This document shows, piece after piece, positions 15,123 to 34,890 of a stretch of 34,890 nt of DNA (its first letter is position 1; every line of letters starts with the position of its first letter). The DNA is from Candidatus Oscillibacter excrementavium (GTDB lineage: Bacteria > Bacillota > Clostridia > Oscillospirales > Oscillospiraceae), in contig DWYU01000077.1 of NCBI GenBank assembly GCA_019118505.1, positions 1-34,890 on the forward strand. The letters are read 5' to 3'. Made by a program: the position numbers and the translations under genes. Under the pieces are notes generated by a model. The model made no database searches. It saw nothing but the letters and a program-made list of their open reading frames with translations, and was not told the origin of the DNA.

Positions 15123-16637
15123 ATGGCATATTTTTTCTCTGAACCCTCCCGGACCTTCAGCGAGTACCTGCTGGTGCCCGGCTACTCCTCCTCGGAGTGC
15201 ATTCCTGCCAACGTCTCCCTCAAGACCCCGGTGGTGAAATACCGCCGGGGAGAGGAGCCGTCCCTTACCATGAACGTGCCCATGGTCTCCGCCGTCATGC
15301 AGGCGGTGTCCGGGGAGCAGATGGGCATCGCCCTGGCGAAGGAGGGCGGCATCGCCTTCATCTACGTCTCCCAGCCCATCGAGCAGCAGGCGGAGATGGT
15401 GCGGAAGGTGAAGAACTACAAGGCGGGCTTCGTCACCAGCGACTCCAACCTCCGCACCGGCGACACCCTGTCGGACGTGCTGGCCCTGAAGGAGCGGACC
15501 GGCCACTCCACCATGGCGGTCACCGACGACGGCACCGGCACCGGCAAGCTGCTGGGCCTGGTCACCAGCCGGGATTACCGGGTCAGCCGCATGGACCCGG
15601 CCACGCCGGTCCGGGACTTCATGACCCCGGCGGACCAGCTGATCACCGCGCCGGAGGGCACCAGCCTGAAGGCCGCCAACGACATCATCTGGGACCACAA
15701 GCTCAACGCCCTGCCCATCGTCTCCGCGGATGGACACCTGGTGAGCTTCGTGTTCCGCAAGGACTATGACGCCCACAAGGGCAATCCCCTGGAGCTGCTG
15801 GACAGCCAGAAGCGGTATGTGGTGGGCGCCGGCATCAACTCCCGGGACTACGAGGACCGGGTGCCCGCCCTGGTGGAAGCCGGCGCGGACGTGCTGGTCA
15901 TCGACTCCTCCGAGGGCTACTCCGAGTGGCAGAAGCGGACCCTGGCCTGGATCCGCAGCCGGTACGGGGACACCGTGAAGGTGGGCGCCGGCAACGTGGT
16001 GGACGGCGAGGGCTTCCGCTTCCTGGCGGACTGCGGCGCCGACTTCGTGAAGGTGGGCATCGGCGGCGGCTCCATCTGCATCACCCGGGAGACCAAGGGC
16101 ATCGGCCGGGGCCAGGCCACGGCGGTCATCGACGTGGCGGCGGAGCGTGACAAGTATTTTGAGGAGACCGGCGTCTACGTGCCTATCTGCGCCGACGGCG
16201 GCATCGTCCAGGACTACCACATCACCCTGGCCCTGGCCATGGGGGCGGATTTCTGCATGCTGGGCCGGTACTTCTCCCGGTTCGACGAGTCCCCCACCAG
16301 CAAGGTCCTCATCGGCGGCAGCTATATGAAGGAGTACTGGGGCGAGGGCAGCGCCCGGGCCCGGAACTGGCAGCGGTACGACCTGGGCGGGGCGGCCAAG
16401 CTTTCCTTTGAGGAGGGCGTGGACTCTTATGTGCCCTACGCCGGCAAGCTGTCCGACGGCATGGCCACCACCCTGGCCAAGGTGCGGTCCACCATGTGCA
16501 ACTGCGGGGCACTGACCATTCCGGAGCTGCGGCAGAAGGCCAAGCTGACCCTGGTGTCCTCCGTCTCCATCGTGGAGGGCGGCGCCCATGATGTGCTGCT
16601 GAAGGACACCACCAATTCTGGAAATCAGCGGAGCTGA
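15123..16637 (+). CDS. guaB: IMP dehydrogenase, parabasalid (Tritrichomonas)-like type
   Basis: A 504-residue enzyme oxidising IMP to XMP with NAD, the first step to GMP. Two CBS domains lie at about 105-220 inside the TIM barrel. The catalytic Cys319 is in [20 protein letters not shown], the flap dyad Arg418-Tyr419 is in NWQRYD, and the tail reads [10 protein letters not shown]. Common bacterial GuaB has GIGPGSICTTR...GVGVPQ instead. The pattern and numbering here match the Tritrichomonas foetus enzyme as I remember it. The ATG follows GAGGTGG. It is probably cotranscribed with the GNAT gene from the promoter at 14536. The last 60 nt are repeated 203 nt further on; either copy would give nearly the same C-terminus (Asp versus Asn at one position). 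Confidence 0.95.
16578..16637 (+). repeat. Direct repeat copy 1: 3' end of guaB
   Basis: The last 60 nt of guaB, coding for [19 protein letters not shown] and the stop. It matches copy 2 at 16781-16840 at 57 of 60 positions, with an offset of 203 nt. Confidence 0.9.
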
Positions 16638-16780: not shown

Positions 16781-16840
16781 GGCGGCGCCCATGATGTGCT
16801 GCTGAAGAATACCACCAATTCTGGGAATCAGCGGAGCTGA
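16781..16840 (+). repeat. Direct repeat copy 2: duplicated guaB 3' end
   Basis: 60 nt that would encode [19 protein letters not shown] and a stop, differing from copy 1 at three positions. It has no start codon of its own and is not expected to be translated. It lies directly before the terminator, which suggests that this is the original gene end and that copy 1 came with an insertion, or that the region was duplicated. Confidence 0.88.
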
Positions 16841-18241: not shown

Positions 18242-18254
18242 GATAGGGCAAAGA

Positions 18255-18352
18255 TAAAAACACGTCCCGGTTGGTAGTCCGGGAGCGGCTGCTGGCCGTC
18301 AGTAACCTGCCTCCTTGGTTGTCCGTTCTTTGTGAGAGTCATTCAAAGGAGG
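18255..18352 (+). promoter_or_regulatory. Probable yjdF riboswitch with anti-Shine-Dalgarno segment
   Basis: The leader in front of a yjdF gene folds into TCCCGG-loop-CCGGGA (18265-18284) and CGGC-TGCTG-GCCG (18286-18298), with unpaired purine-rich stretches typical of an aptamer. CCTCCTT (18310-18316) is an exact complement of the ribosome binding site AAGGAGG (18346-18352). CTTTG (18328-18332) can compete by pairing with CAAAG (18344-18348). Known yjdF RNAs bind aza-aromatic compounds and control yjdF; the placement and fold fit, though I could not test the aptamer consensus. Control of translation rather than transcription is inferred. Confidence 0.68.
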
Positions 18353-23894: not shown

Positions 23895-24048
23895 AATGAG
23901 GAATGAGGAGTTAGGAATTAGGAATTGAAACGGCAGCAGAGGTTTTCCTCCATGATCGCCTGCCAGACAACAAGGACCCGGCGGCCTGATGGCCCCGGGT
24001 CCTTGCTTACGCGCAGAATTCCTAATTCCTAACTCCTCATTCCTCATT
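23895..24048. repeat. 154-bp element with perfect 32-bp inverted ends and an internal hairpin
   Basis: The left arm (23895-23926) and right arm (24017-24048) are exact 32-nt reverse complements built from AATTAGG/AATGAGG-type units. Between them lies AAGGACCCGG-C-GGCC-TGAT-GGCC-CCGGGTCCTT (23972-24004). It occupies the whole gap between the convergent degV and dtxR-like genes, and its right edge supplies part of the latter's stop codon. It could act as a two-way terminator. The long perfect arms, much less GC-rich than the neighbourhood, look like a miniature mobile repeat. A decayed single arm of the same unit type is near 3743-3776. Confidence 0.8.
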
Positions 24049-26947: not shown

Positions 26948-27143
26948 CATCCTCTGGGAAAAAGGGCCAGGAAAAAACCTCCGGTTTTTTCCGTTTGATC
27001 TGCCGAAGGCAGATCAAGCAAATGAGATCATTTTCGCCGCGGCGTGTACGTGGCGAAAATTCCCCGACCCGTGCGCCTTGGGCGCACACACCAGTGACCG
27101 ACGTCACTGGTGGGGGGAATCTAAAAGGGGGACGCAGTCCCCT
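26948..27143. repeat. Six-hairpin structured repeat, copy A
   Basis: Six hairpins in order: GGAAAAAACC-TCC-GGTTTTTTCC (26970-26992), TTGATCTGCC-GAA-GGCAGATCAA (26995-27017), ATTTTCGCC/GGCGAAAAT (27030-27060), GTGCGCC-TTG-GGCGCAC (27071-27087), CACCAGTGAC/GTCACTGGTG (27089-27112) and GGGGAC-GCA-GTCCCC (27128-27142). Spacing and unpaired linkers (ATC before the third hairpin, CCCC-GACCC after it) match copy B at the right end of the window, while stem sequences differ with paired changes. It lies between the feoA stop and feoB. A functional RNA, an mRNA-processing or terminator element, or a mobile hairpin repeat are all possible. Confidence 0.85.
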
Positions 27144-27145
27144 CT

Positions 27146-27367
27146 TTAAGAGACCTCGATCATCTCCGCATCCGCCTTCCGCACGGACAGCTCATAGCCC
27201 CGCACGTTCAATTCCATGGGGTCGCCCAGGGGCGCCACCTTGCGGACGTGGACCTCCACGCCTTTTGTGATGCCCATATCCATGATCCGGCGCTTGGTGG
27301 CGCCCTCTCCGTGGAGCTTGACCACGGTTGCGGTCTCCCCCACTTTCACATCCTTCAGGGTTTTCAT
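27146..27367 (-). CDS. feoA: FeoA domain protein (second copy)
   Basis: A 73-residue SH3-like FeoA protein: MKTLKDVKVGETATVVKLHGEG, then TKRRIMDMGITKGVEVHVRKVAPLGDPMELNVRGYELSVRKADAEMIEV. The arrangement (R.R...MG...G..v.v...APLGDP....v.g..lslR...A..I.V) is the textbook FeoA pattern. FeoA is thought to contact the FeoB cytosolic domain and tune transport. I chose ATG 27367 because AGGAGG lies 7 nt upstream. It follows the other FeoA gene by 28 nt and ends next to the six-hairpin repeat. Confidence 0.93.
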   Translation of the reverse strand: MKTLKDVKVGETATVVKLHGEGATKRRIMDMGITKGVEVHVRKVAPLGDPMELNVRGYELSVRKADAEMIEVS

Positions 27368-27395
27368 ACATCTTCCTCCTAACTCCAGCAAATGT

Positions 27396-34702: not shown

Positions 34703-34890
34703 GCAGGAAAGGGGCCCGGGAAAACCAAGGGGTTTCCCAGTTCTTTCGCCAGCGGCGAAAGAAGATATTCCAATCATTTTCGGCAGGACATGCGCCTGCC
34801 GAAAATCCCCTGACCCAGGCGCCTTGGGCGCCGCTCACCAGTGACCGATGTCACTGGTGGTGGGGGAGGTCGAGGGGGAGCCTGCTCCCC
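34703..34890. repeat. Six-hairpin structured repeat, copy B (reaches the window end)
   Basis: Same order as copy A: GGGAAA...TTTCCC (34718-34738), TTCTTTCGCC-AGC-GGCGAAAGAA (34741-34763), ATTTTCGGCAGG/CCTGCCGAAAAT (34776-34806), GGCGCC-TTG-GGCGCC (34818-34832), CACCAGTGAC/GTCACTGGTG (34836-34859) and GGGGAGC-CT-GCTCCCC (34875-34890). The gap between hairpins 2 and 3 is 12 nt in both copies. It lies upstream of the zinc-ribbon gene, in the same orientation relative to its minus-strand neighbours as copy A. The sixth stem ends exactly at the window edge, so its right boundary is unknown. Confidence 0.85.

Follow-up and report, generated by a model that had tools for sequence, protein, structure and literature searches.

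A repeated chain of hairpins behind stop codons in Oscillospiraceae and further Clostridia

Interspersed intergenic palindromes that form modular mosaics, often behind genes, are represented in enterobacteria and pseudomonads by the REP, BIME and REPIN elements, of which REP is a short single palindrome of 20-40 nt with a GTAG-type tetranucleotide in front. The BOX elements of pneumococci are intergenic modular repeats of stem-forming units, for which we know of no anchoring to stop codons, and attC sites and other single-strand recombination hairpins conserve structure beyond sequence and show a strand preference. According to PMC12306157, E. coli REPs have an effect on translation when they lie within 15 nt of a stop codon, and attC sites are mentioned in PMC8632094. 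A further parallel is MRSC-65-2, which PMC11109978 presents as a single long covarying stem with UYCCGG repeats, occurring in many copies, sometimes near a transposase gene, and filed as a mobile/repeat candidate; inconsistent orientation to genes is taken by the same authors as a sign of such candidates.

Here we describe a chain of about six different hairpins, H1 to H6. It shares with REP, BIME and REPIN elements the traits named above, but its hairpins follow a fixed order, H3 combines a conserved loop with a variable stem, the chain is near-absolutely oriented to the upstream gene in its own genus, and the Y1 transposase is missing from 9 of 15 copy-rich genomes. Where REP is a single palindrome, the own-genus unit extends over ~190 nt and comprises about six hairpins, and inspection by eye showed no GTAG beside H3; in four loci of family f76 (L315, L316, L328, L329) GTAG stands just before the inner H4 stem. 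Like BOX elements, to which we liken it by description only, the chain is built of stem-forming modules; unlike attC sites, chains are dispersed rather than arranged in cassette arrays, and no RYYYAAC core was noticed by eye in the hairpins read. With MRSC-65-2, as described in PMC11109978, the chain has in common many copies per genome, a covarying stem and an ambiguity between RNA and DNA, whereas its orientation to genes is consistent. The kind of element is already known, as interspersed palindromic mosaics and mobile/repeat candidates (PMC11109978), while the family itself is new to us.

The window, by which we mean the whole stretch of DNA analyzed, spans 34,890 nt of Candidatus Oscillibacter excrementavium (assembly GCA_019118505.1, contig DWYU01000077.1, positions 1 to 34,890, forward strand; contig C139 in our labeling) and belongs to a 2.53 Mb draft assembly of 184 contigs. 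An earlier note on this DNA had reported the same chain of six hairpins twice in it, and both copies are present with paired stems, the second being incomplete at the contig end:

24674..26857, minus strand: feoB, the downstream gene (PF02421).
26962..27148, minus strand: copy 1 of the hairpin chain, in the spacer between feoA and feoB (sequence reading, fold, blastn, covariance model).
26970-26979/26983-26992: H1 of copy 1 (sequence reading and fold).
26995-27004/27008-27017: H2 of copy 1, loop GAA, allele TTGATCTGCC/GGCAGATCAA (sequence reading).
27018-27029: gap of 12 nt between H2 and H3 of copy 1 (sequence reading).
27030-27041/27049-27060: H3 of copy 1, the signature hairpin of the family, with a 12-bp stem and the 7-nt loop GCGTGTA (sequence reading).
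27061-27070: linker of copy 1, TCCCCGACCC, with GACCC at its end (sequence reading).
27071-27077/27081-27087: H4 of copy 1 (sequence reading, alignment).
27089-27098/27103-27112: H5 of copy 1, CACCAGTGAC/GTCACTGGTG, 4-nt loop (sequence reading, alignment).
27123-27133/27137-27147: H6 of copy 1, with one A.C mismatch and one G.U (sequence reading).
27146..27391, minus strand: feoA, the upstream gene (PF04023), whose stop codon overlaps H6.
34709..34890, minus strand: copy 2 of the hairpin chain; the contig end falls inside H6, and the H6-side gene is off this contig.
About 34718-34738: H1 of copy 2, imperfect (sequence reading).
34741-34750/34754-34763: H2 of copy 2 (sequence reading).
34776-34787/34795-34806: H3 of copy 2, stem allele CGGCAGG/CCTGCCG, loop ACATGCG (sequence reading).
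34818-34823/34827-34832: H4 of copy 2 (sequence reading).
34836-34845/34850-34859: H5 of copy 2 (sequence reading).
Up to 34890: H6 of copy 2, interrupted there by the contig end (sequence reading).

In gene sense, the general order on the mRNA is stop codon, H6, H5, H4, H3, H2, H1 and the ribosome-binding site of the next gene, which for copy 1 is feoB; the outer end of H6 reaches into the feoA stop codon (27146-27148; TAA, minus strand) and includes two of its three bases. The sequence of H2 is rewritten between the two copies, as had been claimed, with both arms changed and the stems paired on direct reading; as small corrections to the earlier description, the stems of H1 in copy 2 and of H6 in copy 1 are imperfect, the H5 loop has 4 nt, and copy 2 is incomplete. 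Both folds are far more stable than expected by chance: that of copy 1 has an energy of -103.7 kcal/mol, where shuffled sequences give -65.3 +/- 4.3 (z -9.0), and that of copy 2 has a z of -4.5 relative to shuffles.

Further copies, which the earlier note had proposed to look for, are numerous: blastn places 23 in the host genome at E <= 1.2e-4 (37 rows at E <= 10), and a covariance model spanning H3 to H5 (R1) places 25 at E <= 1.8e-5, the later of its 43 rows at E <= 1 being mostly the opposite strand of places already counted. Five of the 23 blastn copies (L002, L009, L014, L016, L020) sit at contig ends, as would be expected if the repeat breaks assembly. The element had not been recognized as a named family, and Rfam 15, searched at gathering threshold, has no match to the element, whether in the window or in 18 additional loci; at permissive E-values, copy 1 has four matches with scores far under gathering, while in 12 distant loci one sub-threshold match touches the margin of the element of L314 and an SRP RNA lies next to, but outside, that of L330. 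No prior description of the family was found in a mostly open-access literature, with longer result lists covered in part, and having met no earlier account of a loop-conserved, stem-rewritten H3 or of the anchoring to stop codons, we regard both as new.

We then asked how far pairing is maintained among the copies. Alignment A3 comprises 18 of the 23 host-genome blastn copies, in whose choice pairing played no part; 98.2% of its 489 cells are paired, which lies above all 500 shuffles and every slid structure, and its covariation score is 0.225, compared with 0.082 +/- 0.010 in shuffled alignments (0/500 reach the observed value) and at most 0.069 in slid structures. Two-sided changes occur at 9 of 28 pairs, and for the number of further pair types, a less clear measure, the observed value exceeds 478 of 500 shuffles and is reached by 22. 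In alignment A4, with 116 matches from related genomes, 99.0% of cells pair and two-sided changes occur at 21 of 28 pairs; because its loci were fetched with a pattern fixing ATTTT..AAAAT and parts of H3, the weight of covariation there is carried by H4, H5 and the free positions of H3. The paired percentages of alignment A5 and of the f7 and f13 sets, which were chosen by requiring pairing, are partly so by construction. Covariation thus goes beyond the shuffled and slid controls in A3 and A4, in tests whose null is not phylogeny-aware and with hairpin exchange as another possible source of the signal. The proposal that structure is conserved while sequence drifts is borne out by these figures, and the differences among the 18 host-genome copies leave the stems intact; with more copies in the genome and no Rfam match to the element, the refutation tests set by the earlier note did not overturn its claim. 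The four strongest pairs by corrected mutual information all fall within stems; a long-range pseudoknot was considered and rejected, since the off-stem pairs among the top 45 join loop ends or adjacent allele columns.

The host-genome copies are mosaics that draw on five recurring H2 stems, a few H3 stems and loops, several H4 stems and two main forms of H6; some copies have their outer parts exchanged for another module, and an extra hairpin is nested inside the H3 loop of L015, L022 and L023. A similar short hairpin module (with TTGCCCCTGCGGGGCAATT) occurs in the H3 loop of these three loci and, in another family, behind H4 of L278, and a second GC-rich module (GAAGCGCCGCC..GGCAGCGGCGC) takes the place of outer hairpins, in either orientation, in L009, L012, L021, L022, L023, L054 and L148. 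At feoA-feoB, the elements of L001 and L143 are largely identical; they differ at five stem positions of H3 with pairing kept, in the H4 loop, and by an additional hairpin between H6 and H5 in L143. Across 98 ortholog pairs, a pattern-selected set, the base pairs of H3 show 125 two-sided changes, 44 one-sided changes leaving G.T and none that is broken, while 66 of the 98 pairs have different H3 loops. Whole hairpins are exchanged between copies, and recombination contributes to the two-sided changes. The compensated changes taken earlier as pointing to selection are therefore real, but exchange of units by recombination yields them as well as selection does, and covariation between two paralogous copies is correspondingly weaker evidence of selection.

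The H3 loop follows the 7-nt consensus RCRTGYR, which is kept in other families of the class while the stem around it is rewritten. Its first and last bases form the fifth-strongest mutual-information pair, with only one of 99 distinct rows departing from A..G or G..A. The two loop types are not products of inversion, the reverse complement of ACATGCG being CGCATGT rather than GCGTGTA.

Placement relative to genes was assessed in 119 copies, 18 from the host genome and 101 from Oscillibacter, Dysosmobacter and unplaced Oscillospiraceae records; the 101 are the best of 116 model matches (rows below ~74 bits left out), from 100 of at least 115 pattern-fetched loci, and neighboring genes were called with a home-made codon score rather than a published gene finder. 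Among the 96 copies with a stop no more than 120 nt from the core, 86 have their first hairpin of at least 6 bp beginning within 10 nt of that stop codon, and the figure is 89 of 107 when 11 copies with a farther called stop (>120 nt) are included; from the 119, this larger set leaves out 11 copies for want of a called gene and one too close to the locus end. Among 182 control spacers (at least 60 nt, same loci, H3 loop motif absent), the same holds for 58 of the 169 that bear a hairpin. In 95/97 callable copies the gene to the right lies on the minus strand, as do both neighbors in 86 of the 91 copies with both sides called, the others being both plus (2) or convergent (3); one side is uncalled in 10 of the 101. 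Background gene pairs number 523 tandem, 55 convergent and 62 divergent.

The complete genome G053 was searched with R1 alone, using no sequence pattern, and contains 25 copies on both chromosome strands. Its upstream gene is in the expected sense in 24/24 called cases and its downstream gene in 22/22 (both sides called in 21 copies, one side in 4), with the stop within 73 nt of the core in 18/24 and 138 nt or more away in 6/24. Two of these copies, at 2462879 (+) and 2465595 (-), are 2.7 kb apart on opposite strands, which makes an orientation set by replication unlikely; we accordingly set aside lagging-strand orientation, and the data suggest that gene direction rather than replication sets the orientation of the chain. 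The bias is weaker in other families, with the upstream gene oriented as expected in 19/23 (f7), 16/22 (f13) and 13/17 called (f76) copies. In the own-genus locus L045 (G011) the chain is inverted relative to the operon in the groES-groEL spacer, and copies L260 and L261 of other families stand behind what appears by eye to be a proper terminator. Of the readings that the earlier note had offered, an mRNA end or processing element comes closest to this placement; it had missed the placement at stop codons and the orientation, the minus strand as gene sense, the reach beyond the family and the exchange of units.

By analogy with the described elements, we tentatively favor the interpretation that the chain constitutes a new REP/BIME-like modular repeat family, probably acting as a stop-proximal structure in mRNA. 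It would act in the mRNA of the upstream gene, on the minus strand of the window, where a hairpin starting at the stop codon would meet the terminating ribosome, as may E. coli REPs within 15 nt of a stop. A stable row of hairpins behind the stop could also bar 3'-to-5' exonucleases and so might uncouple the fate of the upstream from that of the downstream cistron (feoA/feoB, groES/groEL, pheS/pheT), and the conserved H3 loop may be the contact for a putative host factor.

The behavior of mismatched pairs raises a difficulty for this interpretation. In unique own-genus H3 hairpins, plus-strand G.T exceeds A.C by 23:1 under loose and 18:0 under strict counting, whereas the coding control gives 166:177; the other hairpins give 101:89 (loose) and 31:20 (strict) in the own genus, 7:4 in f76, and 20:4 and 36:13 in f13 and 24:8 (loose) and 7:9 (strict) in f7, the f7 and f13 sets of one of these counts having been picked by a scan that tolerated G.T and excluded A.C in H3. 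In 81 of 114 copies the plus strand, antisense to the genes, is also the one with the more stable fold. This G.T excess fits poorly with a function in mRNA and is the main open contradiction in our results. A distinctly unlikely alternative is accordingly that the plus strand is the one that folds, as an antisense RNA or as single-stranded DNA recognized via the H3 loop; G.T is favored over A.C on that strand, the ends of the H3 loop switch between A.G and G.A, and folding there is stronger. However, 53 of the 63 G.T cells of A4 come from one column pair (elsewhere G.T 10, A.C 8), and most H3 cases involve a single position with an invariant T paired to either A or G, so that few independent events are represented. 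In addition, no conserved promoter was seen by eye at the left end in an alignment of copies, and an orientation that follows genes, not chromosome strand, speaks against a lagging-strand intermediate.

Their position behind stop codons, and an f13 H3 whose A-tract and T-tract resemble by eye a bidirectional terminator, might suggest that the chains are ordinary intergenic terminators or attenuators of the upstream gene. We consider this very improbable: a terminator-like hairpin with a T-tract was found in gene sense in 1 of 96 copies and in antisense in none of 96, compared with 15 of 182 control spacers, by which intrinsic terminators are rejected for the own genus, and copies occur between genes that normally form one operon (groES-groEL, pheS-pheT).

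A more substantial alternative to a stop-proximal mRNA structure, and one that we regard as quite possible, is that the chain is a selfish hairpin element without host function, whose mobility system targets gene ends or which is tolerated only there, and whose palindromes are kept by hairpin-templated repair and exchange. High copy number, contigs that break inside copies, and empty sites in relatives are in keeping with such an element, as are module swapping at a single site (L001 and L143), a loop that differs in two-thirds of the ortholog pairs (66/98), nested modules, a degenerate copy (L077) and a remnant with H6 only (L114), both judged by eye; MRSC-65-2, a covarying stem in many copies, was classed as a mobile/repeat candidate in PMC11109978. 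Other observations argue against it: orientation in the own genus is almost exceptionless (95/97 and 24/24), the chain occupies pheS-pheT in two families, and the A..G or G..A rule at the H3 loop ends (98/99 rows) is not expected from templated repair.

Candidate mobility genes bear on the same alternative. The Y1 transposase PF01797 occurs in 17 of 61 genomes of the genus, namely 6/15 with at least 15 copies, 10/33 with 1-14 and 1/13 without copies, a trend that would suit a selfish element but is weak (Fisher p 0.08, extremes compared); it was not found in 9 of the 15 copy-rich genomes (G000, G013, G018, G040, G054, G061, G062, G064, G074), many of them drafts that may hide genes. Membership in the REP/RAYT system is rejected on this basis, the host being among the nine, with the weak trend left over, and the earlier suggestion of a single-strand-transposed mobile element gains little from these counts. 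Reverse transcriptases (PF00078) occur in 6/15, 14/33 and 4/13 genomes of the same three classes, which shows no trend with copy number and speaks against a reverse-transcriptase driver; neither domain is needed for high copy number in the assemblies examined. With one copy as query, phage and plasmid collections gave no blastn match, which counts against a selfish element and led us to reject phage or plasmid carriage; an exact pattern search found four stretches in viral contigs. As regards the marks of a MITE, terminal inverted repeats and a target-site duplication, the chain ends AAAGAGGGG and AAAAGGGG are weakly alike by eye, and empty sites are too diverged to delimit a duplication.

Beyond the host, the core was detected with R1 in 48 of 61 genomes of the genus, host included, and in 16 of 245 genomes of the order, among them members of other genera of the same family and of two other families; an H3-only model (R2) matches in 13 of 291 genomes of class Clostridia, host included, with 78 matches at E <= 1e-4 in G281, the highest number, 48 in G512 and 46 in G154. 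As searches across more than 40 genomes scored the best candidates per genome only (17 order-wide, 24 class-wide), copy numbers in them are lower bounds. In the two other families of the order, the parts are similarly arranged with other sequences (a hairpin, a short spacer, H3, linker, H4 and further hairpins), the end of the chain often meets the stop codon of an opposite-strand gene, and in the f76 and f55 loci read, by eye and by fold, H4 has a longer stem interrupted by an internal loop. Three f76 contigs of G512 (C125, C219, C11) stop just after H3, as if the assembly had collapsed identical copies, and L347 of the same genome has a tandem pair of H2-H3 units ahead of a single H4. The hairpin-chain family is old, chromosomal and modular, and reaches several families of class Clostridia.

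Individual sites differ in age. Host-genome neighbors identified with Pfam include feoA-feoB, groES-groEL, argG-argH, an ACT-domain gene with DUF711, rplA and rplJ, radC with a UvrB-domain gene, and grpE, which adjoins dnaK (dnaK, pheS and pheT were identified by eye from translations, not with Pfam). In 74 of the 119 copies, which form 23 groups, the upstream genes are orthologous, and mostly the downstream genes too. The pheS-pheT spacer holds the chain in six own-genus loci and also, in a different family of the order, in three genomes, where L269 and L279 keep the H3 loop and L274 has another. At grpE-dnaK (15 of 23 dnaK matches read), the chain is present in G000 and G053 (L250) and absent from 14 other loci read, one of which has a different upstream gene; in L183 (G006) the position behind the grpE stop codon is taken by two tandem copies of a different repeat. 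At feoA-feoB (11 of 32 feoB matches read), G000 and G013 carry the chain and G008 a diverged form of it; G004 has just an H6-like hairpin, seven further loci have nothing there, and the groES-groEL spacer is empty in L070. Some sites, such as pheS-pheT, are therefore old and others are gained and lost between species, and empty orthologous sites imply that species manage without single copies.

A bolder version of the mRNA interpretation, which we consider somewhat unlikely, is that a host factor reads the RCRTGYR loop of stop-planted chains class-wide in Clostridia and sets translation termination, 3'-end formation or decay, such that a domesticated repeat would serve as a shared 3'-end code; if true, that code would cover dozens of cistrons in each genome, including some with housekeeping roles. 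The chains would make up a large family of repeats or RNAs, so far uncatalogued, in Oscillospiraceae and other Clostridia, lying within widespread operons (groES-groEL, pheS-pheT), and they offer a natural test of two questions. One is whether gene output is controlled by structure that follows a stop codon; the other is whether selection on RNA or recombination between copies accounts for covariation among repeated palindromes. Copies in which hairpins have been swapped while their sites are otherwise alike provide ready-made experiments.

The window holds other features of note. A yjdF (azaaromatic) riboswitch (RF01764, 85.4 bits) lies at 18244-18342 (+), and a 60-nt direct repeat occupies 16578-16637 and 16781-16840, its copies 95% identical with starts 203 nt apart. 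A perfect 32-nt inverted repeat at 23895-23926 / 24017-24048 is made of TTAGGAATTAGGAATT-like units, and similar tracts in spacers of relatives (L127, L188) perhaps represent a second intergenic repeat family.
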